IMG/VR virus record: IMGVR_UViG_3300005536_000013
Location: 1 to 35,167 of that record
Reading direction: 5' to 3' (one strand)
Length of the DNA stretch: 35,167 nucleotides
From: a virus
Positions 3,537-34,602 of the stretch are shown piece after piece (positions within the stretch are counted from its first letter, which is position 1; the number at the start of each line of letters is the position of its first letter). The notes under the pieces were generated by a model. It had not been told where the DNA came from, ran no database searches, and was given only the letters and a program-made list of their open reading frames with translations. The translations under genes and the position numbers were made by a program.

Positions 3537-4628
3537 CTACCCGAGCAGGTGGTCCACAATGCGGGGGGCCGCATGGCCGTCGCCGAAGCAATGGCTGGGG
3601 TCCGGGCGTGTCGTGAAGCCCAGGGCCCAGTCCAAGCCGTCGAGAATCCCTTGCTCGGTGCGACCGACGACTTTCGCCAAGCCCGCTTCGACGGATTCGG
3701 GGCGGTCGGTTTTCTCACGGGCCACGATACAGGGGATGCCTAACGCCGCGGCCTCCTCTTGGACCCCCCCGGAGTCGGTGATCACGGCACGGGATGTGGA
3801 TAACAGGTCGGCGAAGAGTGCCGATCCGAGCGGGGCCATGAACACAAGATTCTGCCACCCGGTCTTGGGGAGCGCTTCTTGGACGTGCGGGTTCGGGTGC
3901 GTGGGCCAGACGAATTCAAGGTCTGGCGTCCGTTGAGCGCCTTTCGTGATCCCCGCGACGAGGTGGCGCAGCGGCCCCCCAAAACTCTCCCGCCGATGGA
4001 GCGTCACTAAGACACGGTCCTGGACTTCCGTGGTGGGCTGGGTATGAGCGTAGAGGGCGTCGATCCCCGAATTGCCCACTTCCCAAGCGTCCGTCCATCG
4101 GGCGCGAGCCCATTTCGGGGCGTCTTCTAATTTCCCCGTGGCGGGGCCGTCTGTGTTCATGAGATTCCGCATTGTATGGGCCGTAGGCGCAAAGAGCAGC
4201 GTCGCTATTTGGTCAATTTCGTCGCGGAATGCCTCCTCGGGCCAAGGGTCCTGATAGTCGCCCGTCCGAACACCCGCCTCGACATGCGCGATGGGGATTT
4301 CCAGCGCCGCCGCCGCTTGCGCTCCAGCATACGCCGATGCCGTGTCCCCTTGCACCATGACGAGGTCGGGACGGGTTCGCGCCCATTGCGCTCGGAGCGC
4401 GCCGTTGCAAGTTGCCGCATACTTGAGAGGATCGTTGTCACTCGGAAGCCCCAGACTGACGTGGGGCGCCATCGTAGATTCGGCTGGGGTGCCACGGAGG
4501 AGACTGGTATGCTGGCCGGTGGAGATGATGGTGGGTTCGACACCGCGCCGTCGCAGTTCTGCCACAACGGGGGCGAGCTTGATCGCTTCGGGGCGAGTCC
4601 CAAACACTACCGCGAGTCGCGGGGGCAC
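3537..4628 (-). CDS. wecB: UDP-N-acetylglucosamine 2-epimerase (non-hydrolysing)
   Basis: The 363-residue protein is of usual family length. The family interconverts UDP-GlcNAc and UDP-ManNAc in the cytoplasm. Signatures in order are FGTRPEAIK (9-17), VQGDT (92-96, Asp95), HVEAGVRTG (115-123, Glu117), PEEAFRDEID (130-139, Glu131), TLHRRESFG (209-217, His211), HPNP (244-247), DSGGVQEEA (285-293) and TDRPESVEAG (307-316). All the catalytic Asp/Glu/His positions of the WecB family are present, so it should be active. A short insertion lies around residues 158-180. The GTG at 4628 keeps the N-terminal strand intact, but its GAGGG lies directly against it. It is alone on the minus strand among plus-strand genes, so it needs its own promoter. 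It probably feeds the glycan cassette or alters a host polysaccharide. Confidence 0.94.
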   Translation of the reverse strand: MPPRLAVVFGTRPEAIKLAPVVAELRRRGVEPTIISTGQHTSLLRGTPAESTMAPHVSLGLPSDNDPLKYAATCNGALRAQWARTRPDLVMVQGDTASAYAGAQAAAALEIPIAHVEAGVRTGDYQDPWPEEAFRDEIDQIATLLFAPTAHTMRNLMNTDGPATGKLEDAPKWARARWTDAWEVGNSGIDALYAHTQPTTEVQDRVLVTLHRRESFGGPLRHLVAGITKGAQRTPDLEFVWPTHPNPHVQEALPKTGWQNLVFMAPLGSALFADLLSTSRAVITDSGGVQEEAAALGIPCIVAREKTDRPESVEAGLAKVVGRTEQGILDGLDWALGFTTRPDPSHCFGDGHAAPRIVDHLLG

Positions 4629-7083: not shown

Positions 7084-7084
7084 C

Positions 7085-13972: not shown

Positions 13973-13973
13973 T

Positions 13974-16546: not shown

Positions 16547-17397
16547 ATATCAACACGTCGGAAACCTCAGCCTCCCTGCGGAGAGTCCCAATCTGGCTCG
16601 TCGGGTCCGATGGGACCACCCCGCCGTCCACACAGGCCGGAGGCCAGCCGCAGATCAACTGGCTGCCCCGGGGGGCGACGACCGTCAACACCTCGGCCAC
16701 CCTGTCCCTCGTCTCCGTGAATGCGGGCGAGTATTACGTGGAGCTCACTGCCTCCGAAGTCTCCTGTCCGGGCGTGGCGGCGATTCACTATCGGAGCGCG
16801 GCGGCGATTCCGAACTCGACCTACTTCAAGTGTGTCCGCTACGACTCGAACGACTCGATGCGGCTTGGGTTGTTCTCCTTGCCCAATGCGGCAGCGGAAG
16901 CGGCGGGCGGGCTGATTACGGTCGGCACCGGCACGGGGCAACTGAACGTCTCGGCGGGATCGGTCGGGATTCTCGCGGCGACGCATTCCGGGGTCACGAT
17001 TGACGGCGTGAACCGGATCAACTCCAGCGTGACCATCGCGAACGCCACCTACTCTAGTGTCACGGTACGGATCGAGCCCGTGAGCTACTCGGGGGCCACG
17101 GTCGGGGTGAGCAACATCGCCGCCGGGTCGTACTCCGGGGTGAGTGTCGAGGTCACGAATATTCTCCAATCGGCGCGCTCGCTGATTGCCGACGACCTCT
17201 TGCGGCGCGATATTGCCGCTGGGGCCTTCGGCGGGCGGAGCGTCCAAGACGCCCTCCGCTTCCTGCGGAATCGGTTCCTGATCGACGGCTCGACCATGAC
17301 GGTCTATACGGAGGATGACACGACGAGTGCGTGGACGGCGAGTGTGACGACGACGGCGGATATCGCCATCACCGGCTCTGATCCGGGAGGCCCATGA
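16540..17397 (+). CDS. Virion fibre-like protein (paralogue B)
   Basis: The 285-residue protein shares its layout with the gene at 15369: an N-terminal beta domain with 'SVNAGEYYVELTASEV', a central 'THSGVTIDGVNRINSSVTI' repeat-like stretch, VSYSGATVGVSNIAAGSYSG, and a C-terminal domain with FLRNRFLIDGSTMTVYTEDD and WTASV. It has fewer repeats than paralogue A. Its Asn-rich strands are typical of extended fibre proteins. The ATG overlaps the end of the small membrane-protein gene, and its stop overlaps the adaptor ATG (ATGA). I infer a virion role; heteromeric assembly with paralogue A is possible. Confidence 0.77.
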   Translation: MLDINTSETSASLRRVPIWLVGSDGTTPPSTQAGGQPQINWLPRGATTVNTSATLSLVSVNAGEYYVELTASEVSCPGVAAIHYRSAAAIPNSTYFKCVRYDSNDSMRLGLFSLPNAAAEAAGGLITVGTGTGQLNVSAGSVGILAATHSGVTIDGVNRINSSVTIANATYSSVTVRIEPVSYSGATVGVSNIAAGSYSGVSVEVTNILQSARSLIADDLLRRDIAAGAFGGRSVQDALRFLRNRFLIDGSTMTVYTEDDTTSAWTASVTTTADIAITGSDPGGP

Positions 17398-18274: not shown

Positions 18275-18390
18275 CGGCCTCGTCCACGACCGTCGGCAAA
18301 GATTTCATCTTCCGGGTGCAGACGGTGTACCCGTGGCTTGTGGCGACTGGGACACCCGTGATCATTAGCTCGCGGCTCACGACCATATGA
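18271..18390 (+). CDS. Hypothetical 39-residue protein
   Basis: ATG at 18271 overlaps the preceding stop, and its TGA overlaps the tailspike ATG (ATGA at 18387-18390). The product is MTASSTTVGKDFIFRVQTVY followed by a hydrophobic, Thr/Ile-rich end (VATGTPVIISSRLTTI). It may be a genuine tail micro-protein or only a coupling ORF. Function unknown. Confidence 0.45.
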   Translation: MTASSTTVGKDFIFRVQTVYPWLVATGTPVIISSRLTTI

Positions 18391-20798
18391 GCAATCTCTC
18401 CGCGTTTCCGATGATACAGGAGCGGAGCGAGGCCACGCCGGGCCTCTGGAACAATCCGTTCAGCATCATCTCGGCCAACATCGAGGCGATCAATTCCGAT
18501 CTGACGATCAATTTCGCGTCGGGGAATACGCTCAGTGTGTTCTCCTCGGTAGACGCTTCGGAGAACCTCCATGCGGGGAACCGCATCGGGATTGGGGCCA
18601 CGCCGTCGTCGGACAGTGTTGAAGTCCTGACGATTGGGGCGAATTCCAGTCTGTCGGATTACATCCTATTCCACGATCCGAGCGGGGCGAAGTCCAACTA
18701 CATCATCGGCTCGCGGGTCGGGGGGACGGCGGATGGGCTGAATCTCTACGACCTGTCCGGCCAGACGATGATCGTGGGGTTCTCCAAACAGAGCACCAAG
18801 TTCTACAGCCCCGTGGTGGGGACGTTCTTCGACTTGGGTGGGACGGTCTTCAACGTCAAGAGTTTCGGAGCCATCGGGGATGGGGTGGCGGATGACACCC
18901 AACCGATTCAAGATGCGATCAATTTCGCCAATGGGCGTGTGGTGTATTTGCCCGCCGGGACGTACCTCATTACGTCACAGCTCAGTCGGGTCAATCGGGC
19001 GGTATCTGGGGTGTCCAGTAATATCCCGGGCCTCAAGTTGCAGGGCGATGGGATGTATAACAGCGTCATCGACAGCCGGGTCACCAATGGGTTTGCCATC
19101 GTCTGCGATTCGACGGTCACAGAGGTGTTCCAGTGGGGCGGCTATATCCGGGATCTGTCCATCAGCCCCGGAGTCGCGGCCTCCAATAACGGCGGAATCT
19201 CGCTGACCTGTTGCTGGGAATTCTCTATCATCAATGCTCGGATCAACAGTTTGACCAGTGACGCCATTTATATCCCGTTACGGAATGACCTGAGCGCCAA
19301 TGTGGATGAGTACGCCTCCCAGTTCATGCGGATCGCCAACTGCTTGATCACGGGTAATCACGGGTGGGGATTCAACGGGGCCGGGAACATCGCCTGGTCG
19401 GGGACGATTGATGGATGCTACTTCATCAATAACCGAGGTGGAGGAATCTACATCGCCGCGCCCCAGTGTGCGGTCCGCAACAGTTCTTTGGCCGCCAATG
19501 GCATCAACGCCAATGGCGGGATGTGGTTGGACAGTTCTTTTGGCGGACTGGCGGGCAACAAAGTCCTCTCGAATGAGTTCGACAGCAACTACTCCTATTG
19601 TATTCTGGCAGAGGGAGTAGGGGCGGAGATTTCTGAGAATCGCTTTATCGCCACACTCTCGGGGGCCTCGATGCAACCCCCGCAAGGGGTCATTCTAGGC
19701 GATGCCTCCGAGTTTCTGATTAAGGGAAACCATGTTCGGACGACCAGTACCAACACACGACCCTTTACGGCATTCAACCTCTTGGCGGCGTCTAGCGACA
19801 ATGTTCTTCTCAACAACCATCTCTCCGCTGGAGACAATACCTCTGGCCTAACCCGATATATCAATAACGGCTCCCGGAACCGCATCATGGACAGCGGGGC
19901 GTGGATTACGGGGCTGAGCGTGGCCACGGGGACGGTAAATCTTACCGACAGTACGAATGCCAATCCGGTCGTCATTACGAGCAACAATACCACGCTTGGG
20001 GTGTTCCCAGTGATCGTTAGCCAAATCGGGGGCGGCGGCGCGATTGACTTCCAACGTGGGGCGGCAACGCTCGGAGGGGTCGGAGGTCGGGCGGCATGGT
20101 CGGGGACTACCAGTAACGACATCGCCATCGGGGCTCGGACCAATAGTGGGGTGTTCATCTTCACCAATAACAGCACCACCCCCAGTCTGAGCATCGAGAG
20201 TACCAGTACGGTCGGGTTTGGAGTTGGGAAAGCGACATGGGCGTTTACCGGCAACGCCAACGCCATTGACCTCTACAATAGCGGAGGTAACAACACCTAT
20301 TCCGCCATCAATCGCCAATTGTCTGCCGCAGACAATTCCTACCAGGCCCAGGTCAGGTTCGCCCGCACCGCGACTGGAGGCAATTACGGCAGTACGATTG
20401 CCTTTCTGGCAGAGGCGGATGCGGCGGGCAAGAGTATGCTGACCCGCCTCGAAATACGCAACGAGAATGTGGTGGTGTCAAACGCACTCGGTCTGCCTGC
20501 TGGAAGCGCCCAGACGGGAAGTATGTTCTTTTCCTCGGAGAGTTCGCTGGGGGTCTACCGCTCTGGCATTAGCACGATCGCAATATCCCGTGGCACATTC
20601 GATCTCGCCACCAATGCGGTCCGGTTCTCCATGCGAACCCTCGCTGCCTCTGCCGTCACAGTCAGTGCCGCCAATACCAATGTCGCCACCAACGAAGTGG
20701 TGTTCACCGTGGGAGGGGCCTCTGGGGCGTCGCTGGCTGTTCACTCGGGGGGCACGGTTTACATCTTCAATTCCGACATCAGCGCCAAAGCTACATGA
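18387..20798 (+). CDS. Tailspike with pectate-lyase-type beta-helix
   Basis: The 803-residue protein has an N-terminal virion-attachment region (1-150) containing short trimer-like strands (SVFSSVDASENLHAGNRIG). Residues about 153-200 are the pectate-lyase-3 entry: FNVKSFGAIGDGVADDT, a helix, then RVVYLPAGTYLITSQL. A right-handed beta-helix follows to about residue 480, with stacked Asn/Ile/Gly rungs (FSIINARINSLTSDAIYIP, NRGGGIYIAAPQ, GNHVRTTS). The C-terminal 300 residues are a repeat-rich beta domain. Such spikes bind and often cut surface polysaccharide; the active site cannot be fixed from sequence. No C-terminal self-cleaving chaperone was seen. It is the last tail gene before the glycan cassette, which starts in an ATGA overlap. 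Confidence 0.88.
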   Translation: MSNLSAFPMIQERSEATPGLWNNPFSIISANIEAINSDLTINFASGNTLSVFSSVDASENLHAGNRIGIGATPSSDSVEVLTIGANSSLSDYILFHDPSGAKSNYIIGSRVGGTADGLNLYDLSGQTMIVGFSKQSTKFYSPVVGTFFDLGGTVFNVKSFGAIGDGVADDTQPIQDAINFANGRVVYLPAGTYLITSQLSRVNRAVSGVSSNIPGLKLQGDGMYNSVIDSRVTNGFAIVCDSTVTEVFQWGGYIRDLSISPGVAASNNGGISLTCCWEFSIINARINSLTSDAIYIPLRNDLSANVDEYASQFMRIANCLITGNHGWGFNGAGNIAWSGTIDGCYFINNRGGGIYIAAPQCAVRNSSLAANGINANGGMWLDSSFGGLAGNKVLSNEFDSNYSYCILAEGVGAEISENRFIATLSGASMQPPQGVILGDASEFLIKGNHVRTTSTNTRPFTAFNLLAASSDNVLLNNHLSAGDNTSGLTRYINNGSRNRIMDSGAWITGLSVATGTVNLTDSTNANPVVITSNNTTLGVFPVIVSQIGGGGAIDFQRGAATLGGVGGRAAWSGTTSNDIAIGARTNSGVFIFTNNSTTPSLSIESTSTVGFGVGKATWAFTGNANAIDLYNSGGNNTYSAINRQLSAADNSYQAQVRFARTATGGNYGSTIAFLAEADAAGKSMLTRLEIRNENVVVSNALGLPAGSAQTGSMFFSSESSLGVYRSGISTIAISRGTFDLATNAVRFSMRTLAASAVTVSAANTNVATNEVVFTVGGASGASLAVHSGGTVYIFNSDISAKAT

Positions 20799-21457
20799 GG
20801 CTCGTCACCGCGTTGCTGGTGCGCGATGAGGCCAATCGCTATCTCACCCGCGTGCTTGAACGGTGTCTCTCGTTCTCCGATGAAGTGTTGGTCTTGGACG
20901 ACGGCTCCACCGACGACACGGTCAAAATCGCCCAAAATTTAGGATGTTTGGTGAAGCAGCGTCCCCAATCCGGGATGTGGGGGAACGAGGCCCCTGCCCG
21001 GGCGGAACTCTGGGAACGGGGGGCGAAGCTCACCAAGGACGGCTGGCTCCTGATCTGCGATGCCGATCAGATTCTCCACGGAGACCCGCGCCCGCTTTGC
21101 GATACATGGGAGTTCAACTCTTGGGCCTTCGTGCTCTGCGATATGTGGAGCCCCACGCACTACCGCACGGATGGCTACTGGCAGGCGCATCTACACCCGC
21201 GCCCGTGGATGATTCGCCCCAGCGCCTTGGGGCCGAACTTCGTCCCCCAATGGAATGGCCGGGGAATGCACGTAGGTCATTTCCCCCCGAACGCGCCGCT
21301 CGCTTGCGGAATCGCCCCCCCGAGCCAATATTTCTGGGAGCACCTAGCCTATAGTACCCCGGAACATCGGGAAGCAAAGTTGGCGAAGTATCTCGAAGTG
21401 GCGGACCACCTTTCACCTGGGGAACTGGCGCATGCCAGAAGTATTGCGGACACATAG
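20795..21457 (+). CDS. Family-2-type glycosyltransferase
   Basis: The 220-residue protein carries GT-A nucleotide-sugar signatures: RLVTALLVRDEANRYL (2-17), VLVLDDGSTDDT (31-42) and the metal-binding ICDAD (87-91). The C-terminal half has an aromatic cluster (DGYWQAHLHPRPWMIRPSA) and GRGMHVGHFPP, where acceptor-side residues usually sit. It is short for the family (usually 250-350), probably a single GT-A domain without membrane anchor. The ATG overlaps the end of the tailspike gene, so it is co-translated with it. Donor sugar and acceptor cannot be read from the sequence. Confidence 0.85.
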   Translation: MRLVTALLVRDEANRYLTRVLERCLSFSDEVLVLDDGSTDDTVKIAQNLGCLVKQRPQSGMWGNEAPARAELWERGAKLTKDGWLLICDADQILHGDPRPLCDTWEFNSWAFVLCDMWSPTHYRTDGYWQAHLHPRPWMIRPSALGPNFVPQWNGRGMHVGHFPPNAPLACGIAPPSQYFWEHLAYSTPEHREAKLAKYLEVADHLSPGELAHARSIADT

Positions 21458-21469
21458 GCAGCACGCTGC

Positions 21470-22726
21470 ATGACGGTCCAACTCGAAGCCCTCCCTGATC
21501 ATCGCACCACCACCATCGTTGTTGGGACTTCCGTCAGAAAGAGCCTCGAAGTCTTACGCCCTTTCCTGGATTCGTTGGCGTGGCAAGACCTCCCGCCGCG
21601 CACCCAACTCCTCCCCATCTTCGTTCCCGACTGGCCCCAGAAAGACCCCGCTGAAGATTTCCTCCGCACCTGGGTCCAAGAACGCGGGGGGGAATGCTTG
21701 CGGGGCGTGCCCCAGACCGCCGGGGACTTCGCGGATAGCCCGAACTTCGACTCCCATCAATGGGGTTTGACGGCCATGCGGAGGGTCGGGGCGAACAAGA
21801 ACAAGATTCTCCGGCGGGCCTTGGAGTTGAAAGCCGATGCCGTCTGGCTCGTGGATGCCGACCTGATCTTGGATCGCACGACCCTGGCCTCCCTGATGGG
21901 GGCCGAGAAGCCGATTACCACCGCCGTGTATTGGACGCACTGGACCAAGCGGGGCTTTGAGACACGGCAGATTCACGCGTCCCCGCAAGTCTGGCTTCGG
22001 CACCCGTATGAGCTTTCAGGCCGGGGGATGGATGAAGCGGAGTTCCGCCAGAAACTCATCTCCCGCGAACTCACCCGCGTCTGGGGGTTCGGGGCCTGTA
22101 CCTTGATCGCCCGGAAAGTGTTGGAGGCGGGGATCACCTTCGACCCGCTCCCCGATGTCCCGCAGCAGGGCCTCATGGCCGGTGAAGATCGGCAGTTTTG
22201 TATCCGGGTCGAGCGGGGGCATATCGAAGCCTTCGCGGACGCGTGGCCCGACATTATGCATCTCTACCATGCTGACCAGCACGTCCCCCAAATCCCCGAG
22301 ATGGTGAAGCGGCTCGGCACCGAGCACCCCCAGAAAGCCTCGCTCGGCGATTTGGTCTCCCTGAAACTCGAAGCCTTGGAGCCCGTCCCCCACGGCAACG
22401 GGGGATTTCAGGCGATGCCGAGACAGCACATCCGGGGACGCTTGGGGCAGATTGCCTTGATGCCGGAACTCGAAGAGGCGGTGTATTCGCTCGCGCGGGG
22501 AGAGACGCGGATCGTGCCGGTGCATTTCCCGGCTCACCACAGCCTCCCCTACTTCCGGGGGCGCCGCCGTCTGATTCGCCTCACGCTGGTCGATACGAAG
22601 CCATTCGGATTCCCCCCGGTGCTTGACGCGGAACTCTTCGTGGGACCGAAGTCGGGGCGCTGGATGGACACGACCACCCTGACCGCCGAGCAACTGAAGG
22701 GGATGGAAGCGGTGGCCCGTGGCTAA
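21470..22726 (+). CDS. GT-A-type glycosyltransferase with extra C-terminal domain
   Basis: The protein has 418 residues. The N-terminal strand is TTTIVVGTSVRKSLEVLRPF, followed by VWLVDADLIL (126-134) with the DxD motif, WGFGACTLIARKV (205-217) and LMAGEDRQFCIRV (235-247), the acidic acceptor-side motif. His264 and His267 (MHLYH) are placed like a metal-binding His. The last 130 residues (VYSLARGETRIVPV through the Arg-rich GRRRLIRLTLVD) do not match the GT-A fold and are unassigned. The next gene's GTG lies within its final codons. A membrane-free soluble transferase is likely. Confidence 0.8.
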   Translation: MTVQLEALPDHRTTTIVVGTSVRKSLEVLRPFLDSLAWQDLPPRTQLLPIFVPDWPQKDPAEDFLRTWVQERGGECLRGVPQTAGDFADSPNFDSHQWGLTAMRRVGANKNKILRRALELKADAVWLVDADLILDRTTLASLMGAEKPITTAVYWTHWTKRGFETRQIHASPQVWLRHPYELSGRGMDEAEFRQKLISRELTRVWGFGACTLIARKVLEAGITFDPLPDVPQQGLMAGEDRQFCIRVERGHIEAFADAWPDIMHLYHADQHVPQIPEMVKRLGTEHPQKASLGDLVSLKLEALEPVPHGNGGFQAMPRQHIRGRLGQIALMPELEEAVYSLARGETRIVPVHFPAHHSLPYFRGRRRLIRLTLVDTKPFGFPPVLDAELFVGPKSGRWMDTTTLTAEQLKGMEAVARG

Positions 22727-23555
22727 CCCCCAGCAAATCCAAATCCCCTCGGGCTTCGTCTGCGTCACCACGTTCGGCATGATCACCCAACAAACGGTGC
22801 AGAGCCTCCTCGCGGCACGGTCGTTTTCGGAGAAGCAGGGCCTCCAGAACATCCAATGGGAAATGATCCCCGGGACGCTCGTCGAGAAAGCCCGGAACGA
22901 AGCGGTGCGCCGGATGCTCCGGGGCGGCCACGGGTGGATACTCTTCATCGACGGCGATTGTACGTTCGACGAGCACGCCATCATCTCCATGCTCCAAGCG
23001 GCCTATGGGGAGATGCCTGCCGCCGATGCGATGGGCGCCTGGTGCCCGCTGCGGGGCGAACTGGCCCTCCCGACCATCGACACGGGCACGGGGACGTGGG
23101 AAAGTCACTACCCGGGCTCGGGGATTCTCCCCGTCATGCGGACGGGGGGGGCGTTTCTCTTGGTCAAGCGCCACGTCTTCGAAGCCCTGAAAGACCCGTG
23201 GTTTCGGATGCGGGTCCCCGCGCGGGCGATGGACTTCCTCGCGGAGACGGACAACTGGCTCCGCATCAAGTTCGACGGGAAGAATCCCTTCCGAGAGTAC
23301 GGAGACTTCTGGGCGCGGGCCGAGAAAGCGGCCCAAGACGATCCCAGCATCGTGATCGAGAACTTCGTCCCCGTGGAAGTGGGGGAGGATTCAGGCTTTT
23401 GCGACCGGGCGAAGCTCGCGGGCTACAATTTGTTTGTGAACACGAACATCGCGTGCGGGCACGTCGATGCAAAAGTGCTGACATGGGCTGACCATAAGAA
23501 GGCGATGGACGATGCCATGAAATGGCAGCGGCTCGCCTCGGGGCTCTTGGCGTGA
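22719..23555 (+). CDS. GT-A-type glycosyltransferase
   Basis: The 278-residue protein has a GTG start inside the previous gene. Signatures are ILFIDGDCTF (74-83, DxD-type), a nearby PGTLVEKARNEAVRRM helix (51-66) typical of this phage and archaeal subgroup, GGAFLLVKRHVF (143-154) and VGEDSGFCDRAKLAGY (221-236), with CGH at 246-248 for metal binding. It resembles the preceding transferase in its second-half motif (GED..FC), so the two may share ancestry. Substrate not determinable. Its TGA overlaps the cupin's GTG, tying it to sugar processing. Confidence 0.84.
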   Translation: MANPQQIQIPSGFVCVTTFGMITQQTVQSLLAARSFSEKQGLQNIQWEMIPGTLVEKARNEAVRRMLRGGHGWILFIDGDCTFDEHAIISMLQAAYGEMPAADAMGAWCPLRGELALPTIDTGTGTWESHYPGSGILPVMRTGGAFLLVKRHVFEALKDPWFRMRVPARAMDFLAETDNWLRIKFDGKNPFREYGDFWARAEKAAQDDPSIVIENFVPVEVGEDSGFCDRAKLAGYNLFVNTNIACGHVDAKVLTWADHKKAMDDAMKWQRLASGLLA

Positions 23556-23926
23556 GGTTCCACGAAGATGCGCGGCGGCGGTTCTACGGGGATATCTTCG
23601 ACACTCCAGACGGCGATATCAACGTCGTCTATCTCACCCCCAACGTCCCGATTGCCTGGCACCGCCACCAGCACCAAGACGATCATCTCTGGCTTGTCTC
23701 GGGGCTCCTGCGGGTGCGGTGGTTCTCCGAAGAGACCGGGGAGCATCTGGAACACGCGATGGTGGCGTTACCGGGAGCGCGGAGCGTCGTGACGATTCCT
23801 CGGGGCTGGTGGCATGGCTACTGCGCCGTCGCCAAGAACACCGTGCTCCTCCAGTTCAACGGGCCGGGGAAATGGACGGGCGAAGATGAGGAACGGAAGT
23901 CCCTGAAGGACAAGCCGTGGGACTAG
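23552..23926 (+). CDS. RmlC-like cupin, putative sugar 3,5-epimerase
   Basis: The protein has 124 residues from the GTG at 23552, overlapping the previous TGA; the upstream ATG at 23522 adds only shadow residues. The fold signature is a cupin barrel: INVVYLTPNVPIAWHRHQHQ with three His, DDHLWLVSGLLRVRWFSEET, then VTIPRGWWHGYCAVAKNTVL with the second His. RmlC and related enzymes have a similar 'vPxGxxHGF' closing motif and epimerise 4-keto-6-deoxy sugars. It is shorter than RmlC (about 180), so it may be a ketoisomerase or sugar-binding cupin. It is placed between the transferases and the C-methyltransferase/dehydratase pair. Confidence 0.7.
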   Translation: MRFHEDARRRFYGDIFDTPDGDINVVYLTPNVPIAWHRHQHQDDHLWLVSGLLRVRWFSEETGEHLEHAMVALPGARSVVTIPRGWWHGYCAVAKNTVLLQFNGPGKWTGEDEERKSLKDKPWD

Positions 23927-24135
23927 TCGAGGATTTCGCGACCGTCATTGATCTTGCGGCCTCGCTCGAAGGGACCACCGTCTCGCCCCGGGTCAAGACG
24001 CGCATCTGCCGCGCCTACGACCGCGCCATCGAGAAAGCCTTGTGTATCAGTTGGGATGGGAAGCATGACCCCGCCTACATCAACCGTTCTCTCTTTCGCC
24101 ATGCCGAACGCGGGGCGCGGGACTACCTCCCATGA
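23917..24135 (+). CDS. Hypothetical 72-residue protein in the glycan cassette
   Basis: A GTG start at 23917 overlaps the cupin gene. The protein is helical and mildly charged (EDFATVIDLAASLEGTTVSP, RVKTRICRAYDRAIEKALCI) with a His/Arg-rich end (RHAERGARDYLP). It has no catalytic motif and no membrane span. It is tied to the cassette by overlaps on both sides and could be an accessory subunit, but the function is unknown. Confidence 0.65.
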   Translation: MGLVEDFATVIDLAASLEGTTVSPRVKTRICRAYDRAIEKALCISWDGKHDPAYINRSLFRHAERGARDYLP

Positions 24136-24278
24136 GCAGCGTCCTGACTTGTCGCTGGGATCATAGCTTCCCATGGAAGTACCGGGATACCTCCTTTGAC
24201 TCTATCGGGCATTTGATCTGCCCGAGTTGCGCTACCGAACTCGAACGGGTCTGGGCCCTTGTACGCACTCCATACTAA
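24132..24278 (+). CDS. Small CxxC/His protein in the glycan cassette
   Basis: The 48-residue protein starts in an ATGA overlap. It has TCRWDH near the start and ICPSCATELERVW in the second half, so one Cys, one His and a CxxC that could bind a single zinc. It overlaps the start of the C-methyltransferase gene by 20 bases. It reads like a minimal Zn ribbon such as often precedes longer phage genes. Function unknown. Confidence 0.6.
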   Translation: MSSVLTCRWDHSFPWKYRDTSFDSIGHLICPSCATELERVWALVRTPY

Positions 24279-25467
24279 GTGCCGGGCGTGTGGGTCTCTG
24301 GACCTCCGCCAATACTTGGACTTGGGCCTCCAAGCCCCGGCGAATGCCCTCCGCCCCGCAAGCGCCTTACGCTCCCCGGAGTTTCAGGCCCCCCTGTCGG
24401 TGCTCTGGTGTGGCGACTGCGGGCTCTCGCAACTCGCCCAAGTGGTGGACCCCGATCTCCTCTACCGAGATTATCCCTTCCGGGCGGGAGTCTCGTCCAA
24501 GTGGCGGGAGCATTGCGAGGCGATGGCCGATGGGCTCGACTTGGAGATCGGGGATTTCGTCGTCGATATCGGCGCGAACGATGGGACGTTCCTCGACGCC
24601 TGCCTGACGCGGGACGCGAAAGTCTTGGGCGTTGATCCGTGCCCCGTCTCGGATGCCGTCCCCATGCTCCCTGTTCTCTGGTCCGAAGAAACCGCCCGGG
24701 GCTTGGTGCGGATGCACGGCCATCCCGATGTGATCACCGCCACGAATGTTTTTGGGCATGTCGATGACGCGGCGGATTTCCTCCGGGGGCTGGCAGTGGC
24801 GTTGCCCGTGACCGGCTACGCCCTGATCGAATGCCCCCACATCTTCCCGCTCCTAGAGCAGACGGCGTTCGATACGATCTACCACGAGCACCTGTCCTAC
24901 TGGTCGCTCCGGCCCCTGGAACGCCTCTGTGAACAGACGGGCCTCCGGGTGGTGGACGTGGAGATGTTCTCAGACCTCCACGGGGGGACGATGCGCTACA
25001 CCCTCGTCCCGGACACTTCCCCGTGGCACGTCCAAACCTCCGTGACGGGGCTTCGTATTTTGGAAGCGGCCCACTTCGCCGAAGGGCTGGTGCCCTATCG
25101 CGACTTCGCCGAACGCGCGTGGCGGAATATCCTCCTCTTCAAGCAAGCCCTCCAAGAAGAGCGGGACGCCCGGTGGCGCATTGCCGGGTATGGGGCCTCA
25201 GCCAAGGGGAACGTCTTACTGCAAGCCGCTGGCGTCCGCCGGGACTTGCTCTCGGTGATTGTGGATGACACCCCGGCCAAGTGGGGGCTCTACACCCCAG
25301 GCACCGAGATTCCAATTCAACCCCCCGACGCCTTGCGGGAAGCCGACATCTTGGTGCTCTTGTCGTGGAACAACGCCGAGGCGTTGAAAGCCAGCGCGTT
25401 GAAGCAAGGCTTCCGGGGGCGGTTCTTCGTCCCTCATCCTGACCCCCATTTCGAGGACGCCGCATGA
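24259..25467 (+). CDS. Sugar C-methyltransferase (NovU/TylC3-like)
   Basis: The 402-residue protein has the usual family length. It has an N-terminal zinc domain with CRAC (8-11) and CGDC (51-54). The SAM-binding motif is VVDIGANDGT (101-110), followed by ITATNVFGHVDD (159-170). The diagnostic IYHEHLSYWSL is at 207-217, and the C-terminal Rossmann-like GYGASAKGNVLLQ at 310-322. These mark NDP-sugar 3-C-methyltransferases, which add a methyl to C3 of a 4-keto-6-deoxy sugar to make branched sugars. The start is TTG at 24259. Its 3' end overlaps the dehydratase ATG. The substrate is presumably the 4-keto product of the neighbour at 25464. Confidence 0.9.
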   Translation: MYALHTKCRACGSLDLRQYLDLGLQAPANALRPASALRSPEFQAPLSVLWCGDCGLSQLAQVVDPDLLYRDYPFRAGVSSKWREHCEAMADGLDLEIGDFVVDIGANDGTFLDACLTRDAKVLGVDPCPVSDAVPMLPVLWSEETARGLVRMHGHPDVITATNVFGHVDDAADFLRGLAVALPVTGYALIECPHIFPLLEQTAFDTIYHEHLSYWSLRPLERLCEQTGLRVVDVEMFSDLHGGTMRYTLVPDTSPWHVQTSVTGLRILEAAHFAEGLVPYRDFAERAWRNILLFKQALQEERDARWRIAGYGASAKGNVLLQAAGVRRDLLSVIVDDTPAKWGLYTPGTEIPIQPPDALREADILVLLSWNNAEALKASALKQGFRGRFFVPHPDPHFEDAA

Positions 25468-26411
25468 AAGTCGTCGCGGTCACCGGCTGTCTCGGCTTCC
25501 TCGGCTCCCATGTGGTCGAGCTCTTGGTGCAGCATGGCTACCGGGTCTATGGGATCGACGCCGAAACCTACGCCGCGAATACCGATCTCTTGGATAGTTG
25601 GACGGGATTCTCCGACATCTTCAAGTACCAGAAAGCCGACATCTGCGAACTCGACCATCTGACCGACGTGGATGCGGTGATTCACCTCGCCGCCGAGACG
25701 CACGTCGATAACTCGCTTGTCGATGCGACGAAGTTCACCCGAACGAACATCCTCGGGACGCATCGGCTCCTAGAACTCTGCCGGGGCCGACGGCAGTACC
25801 AGATTCCCCTCTTCCTCCACGTCTCGACCGATGAAGTCTATGGGTCGGTGGAGGTAGGGTGTACCGAAGAGGACGCCCCGCTCCGGCCTTCGAGTCCCTA
25901 CGCCGCCTCCAAAGCCGCCGCCGATCTCCTCGTGCAATGCTACGGCCATTCCTTTGGGGTACCGTATCGGATCGTCCGGCCCTCGAACCTCTACGGGCTC
26001 CGGCAGTATCCCGAGAAACTGATCCCCAAGGCCGTGCGGCACCTGGGGCTCGGGCGACCGATCCCCATCCATGAGGGGGGGAATGCCCGGAGGTCCTGGC
26101 TCCACGTTGAGGACTGCGCGGAGGCGATTCTCTCGGTGCTCCAGTATGGGGGGAACGGCGAGACGTACAACGTCGGGGGGAATACCGAAGCCTCCGTGAA
26201 AGAGATCGCCTCGGCGGTCGTCAAGGCCTTCCACGGCCCGGACGCGAATCCCGCCGACTATCTGGACTTGGGCTATACTCGTCTTGGGCTCGACAGTCGC
26301 TATCATGTGGGAGATGCGAAACTCCGGGCGCTGAAATGGGCCCCGCATGGTAACCTCTGGGACGACCTGCCCGATTTGGTGGCCCGGGAGCGCAAGTCGT
26401 TTCGGTGGTGA
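25464..26411 (+). CDS. NDP-glucose 4,6-dehydratase-like SDR enzyme
   Basis: The 315-residue protein is in the extended short-chain dehydrogenase family. NAD binding is at GCLGFLGSH (8-16). IDAETYAANTDLL (31-43) resembles the RmlB 'TYAGN' signature. HLAAETHVDNS (74-84), HVSTDEVYG (119-127) and YAASK (146-150) supply the catalytic Tyr/Lys and the Thr-Asp-Glu dehydratase triad. A C-terminal region with RRSWLHVEDCAEAI is typical of sugar-nucleotide binding. RmlB proteins are about 350 residues, so the C-terminus is slightly trimmed. It should convert NDP-glucose to the 4-keto-6-deoxy form; the exact base and sugar are not fixed. It is the last cassette gene before a tail fibre. Confidence 0.88.
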   Translation: MKVVAVTGCLGFLGSHVVELLVQHGYRVYGIDAETYAANTDLLDSWTGFSDIFKYQKADICELDHLTDVDAVIHLAAETHVDNSLVDATKFTRTNILGTHRLLELCRGRRQYQIPLFLHVSTDEVYGSVEVGCTEEDAPLRPSSPYAASKAAADLLVQCYGHSFGVPYRIVRPSNLYGLRQYPEKLIPKAVRHLGLGRPIPIHEGGNARRSWLHVEDCAEAILSVLQYGGNGETYNVGGNTEASVKEIASAVVKAFHGPDANPADYLDLGYTRLGLDSRYHVGDAKLRALKWAPHGNLWDDLPDLVARERKSFRW

Positions 26412-26447
26412 GGAAATGCATTAGATTGCAGCAACCGAGGAGGGCCC

Positions 26448-27038
26448 GTGCCGACCATTGAATGGACTGAAGGCGATCCCGCTGGTAGCGAATCCCTTGG
26501 GTTGGGCGACAATAGGATTCGATCCCTCAAATCTTCTGTCCGGGTCGGCCTCGATGCCGAGCACGTCTGGCCCTCCGCGAGCGGGGATGCGGGCGTCCAC
26601 CGCCAAGGCTCCGCCCGGCCCTACTACGGTACCCAATCCCTCGTCAGTTCGACGGGCACCGATGCGCGGCTCATGCAGACTTCCGATACCTCGCGGCTCT
26701 TCGGGGTCGGCTCAGGCGGGACGACCTTCCTCGGCGGCCCGACGGCCATTTCGGCGGGGAGTTATCCCGGCACCGTGCCCCAACGGGCGATTTGGGTCGA
26801 AGAGTTCGGGCAAGGCAAGACCGTCTCGGGGCTGACGACAGTCTCCTTTCCCAATTCCGGGTTCAGTACCACGCCCTTCGTCCAGATCACCGCGTACAAC
26901 ACCAATATCGTCGCGCAGATTATGACGCTCACCTCGGTCTCCGCCACGCAGTTTGGCGTGCGCTCGTGCGCGACCGACTTGGGTGGCACGAGTAGCACGA
27001 CGTTCTTTTGGCGGGCCATCGGCCAGCGGACCTTGTAA
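26448..27038 (+). CDS. Tail fibre-like protein with H-type-lectin-like C-terminus
   Basis: The 196-residue protein has a GTG start after GAGGAGGG. The N-terminal region is short and polar (TIEWTEGDPAGSESLGLGDN). From about 125 on it has a compact beta domain: TVSFPNSGFSTTPFVQITAY, then SVSATQFGVRSC and a closing TTFFWRAIGQ. This strand pattern and the 'WxAIG' ending occur in C-terminal receptor-binding domains of phage tail fibres. It lies directly between the glycan cassette and the nozzle-like gene. Receptor binding is inferred. Confidence 0.68.
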   Translation: MPTIEWTEGDPAGSESLGLGDNRIRSLKSSVRVGLDAEHVWPSASGDAGVHRQGSARPYYGTQSLVSSTGTDARLMQTSDTSRLFGVGSGGTTFLGGPTAISAGSYPGTVPQRAIWVEEFGQGKTVSGLTTVSFPNSGFSTTPFVQITAYNTNIVAQIMTLTSVSATQFGVRSCATDLGGTSSTTFFWRAIGQRTL

Positions 27039-28684
27039 TGCCGTTCTACGGAGCGCCGCTCCAAGTGGCCCCCCGCTCGCTGACGAGCGTGCTCCTCGTC
27101 GAGCCCACCTTGGGCCTCGACGCCTCGCAACCGGCGGTCGATGCGCCCCTCGGCAGTACCCCAAGCTCCGAGAACATGATCTTCCGGGAAGGGGCCTTGG
27201 AGCCCCGCCCCGATCTCCAACTCCGCAATACGAATCCCCAGCCGATGGCCGTGCCCGTCACCGGGGGATGGGAATTCGCCGATGTCTTGAACAACCGCTT
27301 CCCCGTGATTTCGGGGACCTCGAACCTCGCGTGGTACTCCAATGGCTCCTGGAGCCAGTTGAGCTATGTCAGCGCGGGCGGCGTGGATTCTGTCCCGGCA
27401 GGCTCGACCACCTCCTACTGGGATGCGACCCAGATTTACTACGACCAGCAAGACCAGCACATCGGCGTCTTGGCGAACGGCTCCTACCAAACCCTCTACT
27501 GCTGGCAATCCGGGACGACGGTCTTCTCCACGCTCACGGGCGCCCCACAGGCGAAGTACGTCACCGCGTTCGACAACTACCTCGTGGCGTTTAACCTTCG
27601 AGACCCCGGCTCGGGGACCTCGGATTACGTCCAGCGCGTCCAGTGGTCGGACCGGGGCTCGGCGTCCAGTTGGACCGGCGGCCTGTCGGGGTTCGAAGAT
27701 TTGCTCAGTATGCGCGGGGCAGGGACGCGGATCGTCGCGCAGGACAACCGCCTGATTCTCTTTTCGGATGCCGAGATTTGGCAGGGCTATCCCTCGAACT
27801 TCCCCTTCGTGTTCCGCTTCGAGCCCTACGACCGCTCGGTCGGCTGTCCCTATCCCTGGACGATTACCTCGACGCCCTTGGGGATTGTGTTCCTCTCCCG
27901 GAACCTCGATGTCTATCTCTTGCCGAAAGAAGGCGGGACCGCCAGACCTATTGGGGGGAGAATCCATCGGTCGATTCGCCAAGCGATGGATGTCCCCGAA
28001 CGTGCGTTTGGCCTCTACGATTTCTCGACGATGCAGTACCAGCTCTACTACCCGACCTTGGGCGGGACGGGATTTCCGCAGCAGGCCATTTACCTGAATC
28101 TCGATGAAGGCTCCTGGGCCCCGCAGACCTTCGATCCCCAAGCGGGCGGGCTTTCGCTGACGCGGGGATTTACGGTCACGGGGCTCGCGACGAGTTCCGC
28201 CGCGACGAGTTGGGACGCCGCTGGCGCGGCGGGGTTGACGTGGGACACCGCCCCGGGGACCTGGGATAGCTACAACACCGGCACGACTTCGGCGGATCGG
28301 CGCGATGTCTATCTGGGCGCCTCGGGCGGGACGGTGTATTTCCTGAGCTCGACGGCAACGACCGACAACGGGACGCCGGTGCCGAATCGCTGGCGGAGTA
28401 CCGCGCTCTGGGGCGAATTCCCCGGGAAGCAAAAGACGGTCACCGAATGGCGGGCGGATTACCAAGCGGACACCGCGTCGGTCCTGACGGTCAAGTTCTC
28501 CCAGAATCAGGGCGGAAGTTTCGAGCAAGGCGTCGGGGTGACGCTCCCGGCGGTCTCGGGCGCCTCCCAAGCCGTGGCGTATCCGTACATCCCCGCCCGC
28601 TTCCCGCAATTCGAGGTGACGAGTGAGGGCCAGCGGTATCGGCTGTATCGCTTCTGGGTCACGGCGCGGATGGGCGGGCGGTGA
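27038..28684 (+). CDS. Tail nozzle/stabilisation-like protein
   Basis: The 548-residue protein starts at the ATG at 27038 (TAATG overlap); an in-frame start at 27008 is a shadow extension. Strand-turn repeats of about 45 residues with Gly/Trp/Tyr (SNLAWYSNGSWSQLSYVSAG, YYDQQDQHIGVLANGSYQTL, YVTAFDNYLVAFNLRD, GIVFLSRNLDVYLL) suggest a beta-propeller. The plug proteins of short-tailed phages, such as P22 gp10 and T7 gp12, have this form. It ends in a basic strand pair. Assigned by fold appearance and by position ahead of the ejection-type genes. Confidence 0.68.
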   Translation: MPFYGAPLQVAPRSLTSVLLVEPTLGLDASQPAVDAPLGSTPSSENMIFREGALEPRPDLQLRNTNPQPMAVPVTGGWEFADVLNNRFPVISGTSNLAWYSNGSWSQLSYVSAGGVDSVPAGSTTSYWDATQIYYDQQDQHIGVLANGSYQTLYCWQSGTTVFSTLTGAPQAKYVTAFDNYLVAFNLRDPGSGTSDYVQRVQWSDRGSASSWTGGLSGFEDLLSMRGAGTRIVAQDNRLILFSDAEIWQGYPSNFPFVFRFEPYDRSVGCPYPWTITSTPLGIVFLSRNLDVYLLPKEGGTARPIGGRIHRSIRQAMDVPERAFGLYDFSTMQYQLYYPTLGGTGFPQQAIYLNLDEGSWAPQTFDPQAGGLSLTRGFTVTGLATSSAATSWDAAGAAGLTWDTAPGTWDSYNTGTTSADRRDVYLGASGGTVYFLSSTATTDNGTPVPNRWRSTALWGEFPGKQKTVTEWRADYQADTASVLTVKFSQNQGGSFEQGVGVTLPAVSGASQAVAYPYIPARFPQFEVTSEGQRYRLYRFWVTARMGGR

Positions 28685-28941
28685 GCGATTTTCGCCGGAT
28701 TGCCAGTCCACCGTCTGATCTCACGGGTCCCTTGGGAACGTATCTGCGCGAAGTCGCCCGCGCCATCAACGATATCCCCGCGCTCTCGGCCTTCTCGGAC
28801 GCCATCGGGCCGAACAGTCATCTCTCCGGGTATCCGGGGGACTTGGCGGTGAATCTCACGAGCGCCAATACAACGCTGCGGCTCTGGCAACTGGGCGGGT
28901 CCTTGCGGCGCCCCTCCACCACGGGATGGAACCCTGTCTAG
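28681..28941 (+). CDS. Hypothetical 86-residue tail-region protein
   Basis: GTG at 28681 overlaps the preceding TGA. The protein has a helical start (SPPSDLTGPLGTYLREVARAIN) and a Ser/Thr/Leu-rich second half (LAVNLTSANTTLRLWQLGGS). It lacks cysteines and membrane spans. Its position after the nozzle-like gene suggests a small tail component; no family recognised. Its stop TAG lies two bases before the inferred start of the glycosyltransferase. Confidence 0.62.
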   Translation: MSDFRRIASPPSDLTGPLGTYLREVARAINDIPALSAFSDAIGPNSHLSGYPGDLAVNLTSANTTLRLWQLGGSLRRPSTTGWNPV

Positions 28942-28942
28942 T

Positions 28943-29530
28943 ATTGCGTGCATCATCATCGCCACGCTCAAGCGGCGGAAGCTGCTGGACGAGTTGGTGC
29001 TTCCAAGTGTCCTCGCCCAAGGCATGGATGAAGTGGTGGTAGTCGGGGATTATCACTCGGGGGAGGGATATCGGCATCTGCCGTTTCACCCGCTCACCGG
29101 GACCACCATCGACGCCTTGTTCAAGCGGGACGTGGGGGCGGTCGCCACATCGAGCGACTGGCTGTTCTATCTCTGCGACGATCACCGCGTCCACCCCGAC
29201 TTCTCGAGAGACCTCCTCCAATTCATGCAGGCCACTCCCCTCGGGACGAAGGATGTGATCGTCCCGGCGCGGTTCTGCACCCGAGGGGAGGAACAGATCG
29301 GCTTGAACATGGGCTGGCCGGGGTACTTGGGGCGGGCGTATATCGGTGGGCATGGGGGGATTTTCCCCCGCGCAGCGGTGCAGGATGTCCCGTGGAGCCT
29401 TGCGCCGTGGTCGCCCCAGTGGGACTACCTGCACTCCAGAATCTTGATCGAGCGGGGATACAATTTCCACTACATGAGTGGCGACTGCTACATTGAGGAT
29501 GTAGAACCGAATAGCGAGCCGTGGCTCTAG
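28943..29530 (+). CDS. Glycosyltransferase-like protein, non-standard start
   Basis: About 195 residues are coded if translation begins near 28943. A conventional start (TTG 28994) would remove the conserved first strand: frame residues before it read IACIIIATLKRRKLLDELV, the classic family-2 opening. VVVVGDYHSG follows, then SDWLFYLCDDHRVHPDF with the DDH metal site, and GGHGGIFPRAAVQ. No ATG, GTG or TTG lies in frame between the upstream region and 28994. ATT (28943) or CTG (28934) is therefore the likely start, with GGGATGGA upstream. It overlaps the methyltransferase by 10 bases. Substrate unknown; it may work with the cassette at 20795. Confidence 0.75.
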   Translation: MACIIIATLKRRKLLDELVLPSVLAQGMDEVVVVGDYHSGEGYRHLPFHPLTGTTIDALFKRDVGAVATSSDWLFYLCDDHRVHPDFSRDLLQFMQATPLGTKDVIVPARFCTRGEEQIGLNMGWPGYLGRAYIGGHGGIFPRAAVQDVPWSLAPWSPQWDYLHSRILIERGYNFHYMSGDCYIEDVEPNSEPWL

Positions 29531-30195
29531 TGCGCGCCGAAGACCTTCCCCCCGCCACCATGATCACCCTCTTGGAGCATACGGTGAACTTTTCCCTGCC
29601 CATCCCCGAAGAATTCAATCTCATGGCCCGCCGCGCCGCTTTTCCGCTCCCGAGCCTCCGCGAGGAATGGGACCTCGGCAACTACCTCTCCGGCTCGACG
29701 GAGCCGTGGAACGTCGAAATCCTCGCGGCGCTCTTGAAGGCGTCGAACGCGAACACCGTCTTGGAGTGCGGGGGGTATCTCGGGTGTACCTCCGCGTGGC
29801 TGGCGATGACCTTGCAGGCAATGGGCGGAGGGACGTTCCACATCGCGGAGCTCGAAGCCGACCGGGCCTTAGCCTGTGACAAGCGGCTCTCCGAACTGCC
29901 CATCCCGGAGGTGGTCTGGCGCGTGTGGCAAGACGACGTGTTCAATGTGATCGCGGCGCAGCCCGACGAATCCATCGACTTCGCCTGGGTCGATGACAAT
30001 CACGAGAAAGAGCATGTGGACCGGGAACTCGCGGCGTTGATTCCGAAGATGCGTCGGCCTCGGGGGTTGATCACCGGCCACGATGTCTGGGGGTCCACGG
30101 ACCTTCAGGAAATCTTCGTGAAGCACGGCGGGTATGCATTGGACTTTCCTCGGCTGGGACTAGCTGGGGGGATCGGGGTACTGCAAGTCCGATGA
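29521..30195 (+). CDS. SAM-dependent class I methyltransferase
   Basis: The 224-residue protein has a GTG start overlapping the previous gene. The SAM-binding motif is VLECGGYLGCTSAWLAM (about 80-96). A second acidic strand is FHIAELEADRALACD, and FAWVDDNHEKEHV holds the metal-type Asp cluster of the small-molecule O-methyltransferase group. LITGHDVWG follows. These features match Methyltransf_24-type enzymes, which often methylate sugar hydroxyls. The target is unknown; lying between a glycosyltransferase and a GNAT protein, glycan modification is plausible. Confidence 0.82.
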   Translation: MALVRAEDLPPATMITLLEHTVNFSLPIPEEFNLMARRAAFPLPSLREEWDLGNYLSGSTEPWNVEILAALLKASNANTVLECGGYLGCTSAWLAMTLQAMGGGTFHIAELEADRALACDKRLSELPIPEVVWRVWQDDVFNVIAAQPDESIDFAWVDDNHEKEHVDRELAALIPKMRRPRGLITGHDVWGSTDLQEIFVKHGGYALDFPRLGLAGGIGVLQVR

Positions 30196-30920
30196 CGCTC
30201 CTCGCGGTGCCGTTCCAGCCCTTGAACGTCAACGAGCGCACCGCTGAATCGCTCTTGAACGGGATGCTCTCGGTCCCCGCCATCTTCCCCGCGCCGGGGA
30301 ACCTGGAAGAGCGCCGGGTCTTGATCGCCTCGATTCTCTCCGACCCCTTGAACCGCGTCTGGCTCGTCTGGCAAGGCGGGGGGCTCGTGGGTTGCTTACT
30401 TTTGACCCACATCGTGCCCCAAGTGGACGCCCAATGTCACTTCGTGTTCTTCGACCGTACCCTCTTCGGGCGCCGGACGCTCCTTTGGAACTTGATGGGG
30501 AAGGTCTTTCAGGAATACGATTTGCAGCGCTTGACGGTCGAAGTCCCCGAGTATCTGACCCCCCTCTATAAATTCGTCCGCAAAAAGCTTATGTTCAGGT
30601 TGGAAGGGGAACCGACGGCGAGTGCCCATCCCCTGACAGAGAAGGTGAAGATCGCCGTCAAGCCGTATGTGAAGGACGGCACCGAGTGGGTGGCCCGTTT
30701 GGGCTCCCGTCGTGAGCGCGCCTGCTTGAATCCCGAAACCCAAACGTGGACTGATATGATCCGGCTCCGGCTGTTACGTTCGGAGTACGAGCAGGAGGCA
30801 CATGCCAGCCGGGGAACCGAAAGCGCTCGTTCCGAAGGACCTGCGGGGGGTCCGCAAGCAACAGATCGGCTACCTCCAGGACCCGCAGTCGTTCCTGAAG
30901 TTGCTCGGAGGACTGGGTAG
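30192..30920 (+). CDS. GNAT-like acetyltransferase
   Basis: The 242-residue protein starts at the ATG overlapping the previous TGA. The middle reads as a GNAT core: RVWLVWQGGGLVGCLLLTH (strand), then FDRTLFGRRTLLWNLMGKVF with the Arg/Gly-rich CoA-binding turn and following helix, EYDLQRLTVEVPEY, and PLYKFVRKKLMFRLEGE as the typical end. The last 40 residues, after 30802, share DNA with the next gene in another frame and are probably not a functional domain. An acetyl-CoA-dependent role on sugar or protein is inferred; the Arg/Gly signature is imperfect. Confidence 0.62.
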   Translation: MTLLAVPFQPLNVNERTAESLLNGMLSVPAIFPAPGNLEERRVLIASILSDPLNRVWLVWQGGGLVGCLLLTHIVPQVDAQCHFVFFDRTLFGRRTLLWNLMGKVFQEYDLQRLTVEVPEYLTPLYKFVRKKLMFRLEGEPTASAHPLTEKVKIAVKPYVKDGTEWVARLGSRRERACLNPETQTWTDMIRLRLLRSEYEQEAHASRGTESARSEGPAGGPQATDRLPPGPAVVPEVARRTG

Positions 30921-31491
30921 TCCCCAAAGTCCCCTCCAGATGCAAGGCGCGGATGCCTTGGGGACGATGCTCCGCCAGCCCACCCCGGAACAGCGGGCGC
31001 TTGATGTTTCCATGCCCGCCCTGCAAGCGATGCTCACCGGGCAGGGTCCGCAGTTCGAGCAGGATATCGGACTCGCCAATCAGCAAGGCGGACGGTTCGG
31101 CTCGGGGAACGCGATTCTCCGGGGGGAAGCCCTCCGCAATCTCTTCAACATGCGAACGCAGGTCGCGCAGACGCTCGGGCTCTTAAGCCAGGGGGCGGGG
31201 AGCGCCAATCGCGGCCTCGCTGGGCAGGCGTTTGGGATGGGCCAGCAGCAGGCGGGCCAGATGGATATCGAAACTCAGCGGCGCATCCAAATCCTGATGC
31301 AACTGCTGGGGGCGGGACAACAGTCCGCCTTCAATGTGCCCATTCAGCCGGGCAAGAGTTTCCTCGATACGCTGGGGCAGATTGGGTCCATCGCGGCCCA
31401 GTTTATTCCCGGCACCAACACCGGGAAAGCGGCCACGGGGAGCGGACCAATCCCCATCTCTGACGCTTCCTACGGCGGGGGGTACGCTTGA
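30802..31491 (+). CDS. Internal virion (ejection-type) protein, small
   Basis: The 229-residue protein follows a strong AGGAGG. It is Gln/Gly/Leu-rich: helical QQIGYLQDPQSFLKLLGGLG, then PALQAMLTGQGPQFEQDIGL and RTQVAQTLGLLSQGAGS. The Ala/Gly-rich amphipathic pattern and the Gln runs resemble internal proteins that are packed in the head and injected ahead of DNA in P22-like phages. Together with the next two genes it forms a three-gene ejection-like set. The TTG of the next gene overlaps its end. Not identified by signature. Confidence 0.6.
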   Translation: MPAGEPKALVPKDLRGVRKQQIGYLQDPQSFLKLLGGLGSPQSPLQMQGADALGTMLRQPTPEQRALDVSMPALQAMLTGQGPQFEQDIGLANQQGGRFGSGNAILRGEALRNLFNMRTQVAQTLGLLSQGAGSANRGLAGQAFGMGQQQAGQMDIETQRRIQILMQLLGAGQQSAFNVPIQPGKSFLDTLGQIGSIAAQFIPGTNTGKAATGSGPIPISDASYGGGYA

Positions 31492-34591: not shown

Positions 34592-34602
34592 CGGCCACCA
34601 GC

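Follow-up and report, generated by a model that had tools for sequence, protein, structure and literature searches.

Glycosyltransferase genes coupled to the tail genes of an uncultured podophage lineage and their possible role in virion glycosylation

Gene order and the glycosyltransferases behind the tailspike

The stretch of DNA analysed here, referred to as the window, is the virus record IMGVR_UViG_3300005536_000013 of 35,167 bases, in which an end repeat is absent. On its plus strand, genes for TerL, portal, scaffold, a decoration-like protein, the major capsid protein (MCP), a Ser/Thr-rich block, a gp4-like adaptor and a tailspike are followed by a cassette of glycosyltransferase and sugar-modifying genes, a putative fibre, a nozzle-like tail protein, a small protein, a further glycosyltransferase (GT4), an S-adenosylmethionine (SAM) methyltransferase, a GNAT-like protein and later genes. 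The cassette genes all lie on the plus strand with coding-like GC content at third codon positions (GC3), their ends mostly overlap or abut, and none of their products has a clear transmembrane-like stretch. A preliminary description had placed three glycosyltransferases (GT1, GT2 and GT3), a cupin, a sugar C-methyltransferase and an RmlB-type dehydratase in an overlapping run behind the tailspike, and GT4, the SAM methyltransferase and the GNAT-like protein behind the nozzle. We found the first group near the places given and the second in the order given, with a correction to the start of GT4. The arrangement is syntenic in independent contigs and is therefore not due to chance.

GT1 (20795..21457; features are on the plus strand unless stated otherwise) was recognized as a GT-A glycosyltransferase by a match above cut-off to the GT2-family Pfam model PF00535 (E=1.4e-7). 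Its first 4 nt are the last 4 nt of the tailspike gene, and the two genes overlap at the tailspike stop. Homologues are 41–55% identical in most related phages and 35–37% identical in two of them (G018 and G020). GT2 (21470..22726), a predicted GT-A glycosyltransferase with a C-terminal extension, was assigned by its AlphaFold2 (AF2) model and conserved motifs, and GT3 (22719..23555), also of GT-A type, by a match to phrog_1574 (E=3e-16). Both window proteins are remote members of the GT-A group that on their own gave no or sub-threshold family matches; PF00535 was matched by 5 of 15 members of the GT2 family and by 11 of 14 members of the GT3 family. The DxD and GED (ED) motifs are kept in all full-length GT2 homologues, and the catalytic motifs are intact throughout the glycosyltransferase families. 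No protein match to GT2 was obtained among 50,697 phage records, and a sequence search with GT3 against the PDB returned no match.

The GT2 model (pLDDT 86) found its best PDB match in the human collagen galactosyltransferase COLGALT1, with a Z score of 23.8 over 249 residues. Further matches were LH3 (Z 20), Mimivirus R699 (18.6) and yeast Mnn9 (18.5), and general bacterial GT-A proteins reached a Z of at most 16.6. For the GT3 model (pLDDT 79), the best match was A197 of Sulfolobus turreted icosahedral virus (STIV; Z 17.3), tied with LH3 (16.7); GalNAc-T2 came next after A197 in Foldseek. The best structural matches of the two models are thus mostly transferases linked to proteins or virions, a predicted likeness of fold which alone would not prove an acceptor.

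GT4 (28934..29530), a probable GT-A-like glycosyltransferase, matched PF13632 below cut-off (E=0.0018) and was extended by N-terminal homology, which runs upstream of the listed TTG at 28994 to a non-ATG start near 28934–28943. Its motifs DDH and WD are invariant in 8 homologues. The SAM methyltransferase (29521..30195) belongs to Methyltransf_24 (PF13578, E=2.2e-12). The GNAT-like protein (30192..30920) was assigned weakly, by matches of 5 of the 10 members of its family to the acyl-CoA N-acyltransferase group phrog_4470 (best E 0.009), and homologues occur in 9 relatives, recurrently behind the nozzle. Its slot after the nozzle is that of T7 gp13; a comparison of the profile with one T7 sequence was empty, and the designation GNAT-like was retained.

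Conservation of the trio in related phages

Relatives of the window were gathered from metagenomes by scans with MCP, TerL, the C-methyltransferase and GT2. One of them, G007 (contig 3300046727_000402), is apparently complete at 47.4 kb with a 127-bp terminal direct repeat, and its order of tailspike region, GT1, GT2, GT3, C-methyltransferase, RmlB, nozzle, GT4, SAM methyltransferase and GNAT is that of the window. Adjacent GT1-GT2-GT3 genes were found in 13 IMG/VR contigs by the GT2 scan and in locus L235 by the MCP scan. The sample selected by MCP is independent of the cassette; counting loci with an MCP at least 42% identical and a contig covering the site, the trio was present in 9 of 9. 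The 10-kb locus does not reach the trio in G006, G007 and part of G013, for which the separate tblastn gene map was used. Of 20 further records, 19 were negative with the GT2 and GT3 profiles. Most of these records have an MCP identity of about 30–35%, and the cultured Planktothrix phage Pag-Yong1 is one of them; two closer relatives among these 20, G040 and G041, have contigs too short to tell. G023 (MCP 37%) gave a weak partial match to these profiles. In 7 distant records searched with all module profiles, TerL and MCP were present and GT1–4, the SAM methyltransferase, GNAT and WecB were not found.

Pairwise identities of GT1–3 track those of MCP, portal and TerL (rho 0.74–0.88, permutation p=0.0005), and conservation of GT2 and GT3 is about that of TerL and portal. 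This correlation indicates that the transferases are inherited like the capsid genes, as expected under vertical inheritance. The preliminary description had argued for a late, tail-coupled placement, which is borne out by the overlap of GT1 with the tailspike stop and by synteny beside tail genes kept in the relatives. A position only in an early module would have spoken for another role; the trio adjoins tail genes in all informative relatives. In G018 and G020, trio and nozzle are encoded on different strands. GT1 and GT2 are joined in a single open reading frame (ORF; about 625 aa) in G012, G013, G014, G015 and G019, and GT4 is fused to the SAM methyltransferase in G012 (ORF 30555–31757), natural fusions which, as judged from the reading frames, would tie parts of the module together. 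Taken together, sequence comparison places the GT1-GT2-GT3 module in the core gene set of an uncultured lineage of podophages.

Several observations on these contigs stand apart from the module. An ORF with a LAGLIDADG-like endonuclease motif, seen by eye, occurs at 9543–10046 of the window, 14682–14984 of G006 and 7303–7956 of G007; its different placement in the head modules of related phages suggests a mobile insert. Translations of the early arm of G007 revealed an FkbM-like methyltransferase (34178–35026, minus strand, L104) and a probable DNA cytosine methylase (44613–45929, L105). The assembled contig G001 has one stop codon in the MCP frame over the matched range (9607–10515, L117). 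A near-identity DNA search among known phages matched nothing to the window, and a scan of it for promoters and terminators gave counts near the shuffled expectation. A scan of bacterial genomes with the MCP profile returned one 4.5-kb contig in a metagenome-assembled genome of Planctomycetota, which was too weak for a host call.

Nucleotide-sugar enzymes and candidate acceptors

The C-methyltransferase (24259..25467) is a predicted sugar 3-C-methyltransferase of the TylC3/TcaB9 type. It matched PF08421, PF13489 and PF08484, carries the YHEH motif, a zinc-binding N domain, a SAM domain and a C-terminal domain, and found its best PDB matches, over the full length, in TylC3 and TcaB9 (4rv9, E=1e-81; 3ndi). 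The adjoining RmlB-type NDP-glucose 4,6-dehydratase (25464..26411), a member of the short-chain dehydrogenase/reductase (SDR) family, matched dTDP-glucose 4,6-dehydratases of the PDB with E values down to 4.5e-71 and has the motifs STDE and YxxxK. Its best NCBIfam model, TIGR01181, scored 264.5, below the equivalog cut-off of 365.1, and given this score dTDP-glucose is the likely substrate. Overlooked in the preliminary description was a WecB-type non-hydrolysing UDP-GlcNAc 2-epimerase (3537..4628), encoded in the arm of minus-strand genes that lies upstream of the terminase. It exceeded the TIGR00236 cut-off of 210 bits (262 bits, E=7.4e-78), matched UDP-GlcNAc 2-epimerases of the PDB and contains the motifs GDT, VEAGVR, PEEAFR and HRRE. 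The cupin (23522..23926) had been called RmlC-like, a label that did not hold: PF00908 gave no match, with controls positive in 11 genomes, and the nearest family is WbuC (TIGR04366, 32.6 bits, below the cut-off of 42). A sequence search against the PDB returned no match, and tblastn detected no homologue in the relatives, which makes the cupin a non-conserved member of the cassette. A 332-nt stretch with two small ORFs separates it from the C-methyltransferase, one of 72 aa (23917..24135) having no family match and one of 48 aa (24132..24278) being zinc-ribbon-like with a CPxC motif (FPWxY...CPxC...W, by eye from translations). ORFs similar to the latter directly precede the C-methyltransferase in G001, G006 and G011, again by eye.

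The sugar genes are distributed differently from the trio. The C-methyltransferase occurs just in the subclade nearest to the window (G001, G006, G007 and G011), with RmlB 49% identical in G007 and G011, and WecB homologues of 39–46% identity are found in G011–G015 and are missing from the complete G007. Between GT4 and GNAT, other relatives carry different SDR genes or epimerases, a cytidylyltransferase-like gene (G015, 16079–16495) and a NodB-like deacetylase (G012, 34287–35012), all by eye from translations; such sister phages may use other sugar chemistries. A conserved trio together with patchy RmlB/C-methyltransferase and WecB genes indicates that the transferases are fixed while the sugar supply is exchanged, and by this gene distribution RmlB and the C-methyltransferase are classed as an exchangeable accessory outside the core. 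The earlier proposal that the phage builds its own sugar stands in part. Sugar-modifying enzymes are present, but a nucleotidylyltransferase (NTP_transferase, PF00483) was found in 0 of 8 records with 14 of 14 controls positive, so that the host must supply the activated sugar and its NDP-sugars would be reshaped. A 4-ketoreductase was not identified among the phage sugar genes, and the predicted donor, we infer, is a C-methylated 4-keto-6-deoxy sugar.

The tailspike and the Ser/Thr-rich block had both been named as candidate acceptors. The tailspike (18387..20798) is a pectate-lyase-like beta-helix protein (PF12708, E=2.8e-16). Taking the largest ORF between gp4 and GT1 as the tailspike, an alignment over more than half the length was obtained in 1 of 91 pairs among the relatives, whereas the trio aligns throughout. 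Replacement of the tailspike body while the trio stays renders the tailspike an uncertain acceptor. It also speaks against an acceptor tuned to a single surface glycan of the host, as enzymes of that kind would be expected to change along with the tailspike. The Ser/Thr-rich block (13616–17397; S+T 21–31%) has its space between MCP and gp4 shrunk to about 0.9 kb in the trio-bearing G015 and G019; as these relatives leave no room for a block of this size, it cannot be an obligate target. Since tailspike bodies and Ser/Thr block are both replaceable, a conserved virion protein such as MCP, the decoration protein or the nozzle is the more likely acceptor. The nozzle-like protein (27008..28684), for which a single-sequence scan was nearly empty, matched the virion structural family phrog_3287 (E=2.5e-25). 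The putative fibre (26448..27038), whose homologues align mostly over residues 1–140 with a conserved N-terminus and a variable C-terminus, may, together with the tailspike, flank the cassette as a second receptor-binding protein. A repeat-containing Ser/Thr-rich family, with two copies at 15369–17397 of the window, sits between TerL and portal in G014 (6967–7788) and G015 (49512–50219) and appears to be a movable structural module.

Probable virion glycosylation, rival explanations and known systems

We favour, with modest confidence, late glycosylation of virion proteins by the glycosyltransferase module. GT1, GT2 and GT3 would be translated right behind the tailspike, the first two as one bifunctional chain in some relatives, and together with GT4 and its methyltransferase they would probably add sugars sequentially to one of the phage's structural proteins, acting in the cytoplasm while particles assemble. 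The donors would be host NDP-sugars reshaped by the accessory phage enzymes: RmlB may convert host dTDP-glucose to a 4-keto-6-deoxy sugar, the TylC3-type enzyme may add a methyl branch, probably at C3, and WecB may supply UDP-ManNAc. Capping of the glycan would probably fall to the SAM methyltransferase. Enzyme activities, the order of sugars and the acceptor are, in this scheme, predictions from sequence. More tentatively, the module may be an obligate, vertically inherited protein-glycosylation machine with fixed, partly fused transferases and interchangeable nucleotide-sugar genes, giving each phage a different glycan coat, based on branched deoxysugars or ManNAc, that would vary without regard to the tailspike.

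The preliminary description had preferred virion modification over host takeover, a preference to which co-inheritance with the capsid, replaced tailspikes, the structural likeness of GT2 and GT3 and the solubility of the enzymes lend support. Several points weigh on the other side. RmlT, TarP and lipopolysaccharide (LPS)-type transferases score just moderately below the protein glycosyltransferases, the alignment of GT2 with LH3 covers LH3 residues 293–540, which may not be a catalytic domain, and the modelled similarity would leave the acceptor unfixed. A conserved host target, such as the undecaprenyl carrier or the LPS core, would equally explain conservation. The transferases might remodel LPS, the capsule or a lipid-linked repeat late in infection, masking the tailspike receptor to block superinfection and the binding of progeny to debris. 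This reading, which we regard as rather unlikely, draws on the position of the cassette in a host-range-associated locus next to tailspike and fibre, on WecB, RmlB and C-methyltransferase as enzymes typical of O-antigen or capsule, on the wall teichoic acid transferases RmlT and TarP among the structural matches, and on nucleotide-sugar genes that differ between phages. However, the trio is conserved even though the tailspike bodies, and hence probably the receptors, are unrelated, and the genes go with the late tail genes and not with an early module. A transmembrane anchor was also not found, and GtrA flippase and integrase had no match in 8 records with positive controls, the window itself being incomplete.

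That the cassette is mixed cargo, unrelated metabolic genes that accumulate at a late insertion site tolerant of them and serve no joint function, appears improbable. The patchy cupin, C-methyltransferase, RmlB and WecB and the different epimerases, NodB-like deacetylase or cytidylyltransferase of other relatives fit this idea; GT1–3, GT4, SAM methyltransferase and GNAT, however, recur in almost the same order, GT1–3 and GNAT share the inheritance of the capsid genes, and both kinds of fusion exist. We consider it very improbable that the transferases glycosylate phage DNA, producing hypermodified bases against restriction. We know of no part that branched-deoxysugar enzymes play in base modification, the genes sit among tail genes, and the TET-associated glycosyltransferase family in Pfam is listed for no GT2 or GT3 member. 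A thymidylate-synthase-type hydroxymethylase (PF00303) was absent from 8 records with positive controls, and a search of 8 records for TET/JBP (PF12851), run without a positive control, gave no match. Such an activity has its precedent in viral glycosyltransferases that hypermodify DNA (Pyle 2024, as cited in PMC12619734); TET-associated transferases are among the lower-ranked viral structural matches, and the probable DNA cytosine methylase of G007 would also fit.

Phage glycosyltransferases are commonly regarded as patchy accessory genes. Throughout this lineage, three or four of them are inherited along with the capsid genes while the sugar-making genes swap. If they act on virions, this would be a natural system for changing the sugar coat of a particle, which would bear on its adsorption, stability and defence. 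The lineage is also a source of compact soluble glycosyltransferases, including the GT1-GT2 fusions.

Virion glycosylation by phage enzymes is already known, as are glycosyltransferase and nucleotide-sugar genes beside tail genes. Mycobacteriophage glycosyltransferases are reported to glycosylate virions, with glycans on capsid and tail-tube subunits (Freeman et al. 2023, via PMC12619734 and PMC10955285). The phage-encoded transferases are shared with the system described here, which differs in having four of them with RmlB, C-methyltransferase, WecB, a methyltransferase and GT1-GT2 fusions in a podophage tail operon; for the present system, glycoproteins are a prediction. STIV A197 is an essential viral glycosyltransferase for which the STIV coat protein has been proposed as a substrate (PMC10551542). 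It shares the GT-A fold and is the top structural match of GT3, but it is 19% identical to GT3 and a single transferase of a tailless archaeal virus, with donors presumed to come from the host. Synechococcus phage ACG-2014f encodes a GT3-like protein, a family 2 glycosyltransferase and a nucleotide-sugar epimerase beside tail collar genes; it is a T4-like myovirus whose GT3 homologue is 25% identical, with no annotated GT1-GT2 pair or C-methyltransferase. Deoxysugar pathways with TylC3/TcaB9 and RmlB use the same enzyme families and motifs, whereas here they form part of a late phage operon that lacks RmlA-type and RmlC-family enzymes. The gtr clusters with which temperate phages bring about serotype conversion likewise include phage-coded transferases; in contrast, the transferases here are soluble and neither GtrA flippase nor integrase was found. 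What appears to be new, judging from the genes compared, is a lineage-wide, capsid-linked set of glycosyltransferases with fusions and exchangeable sugar genes.

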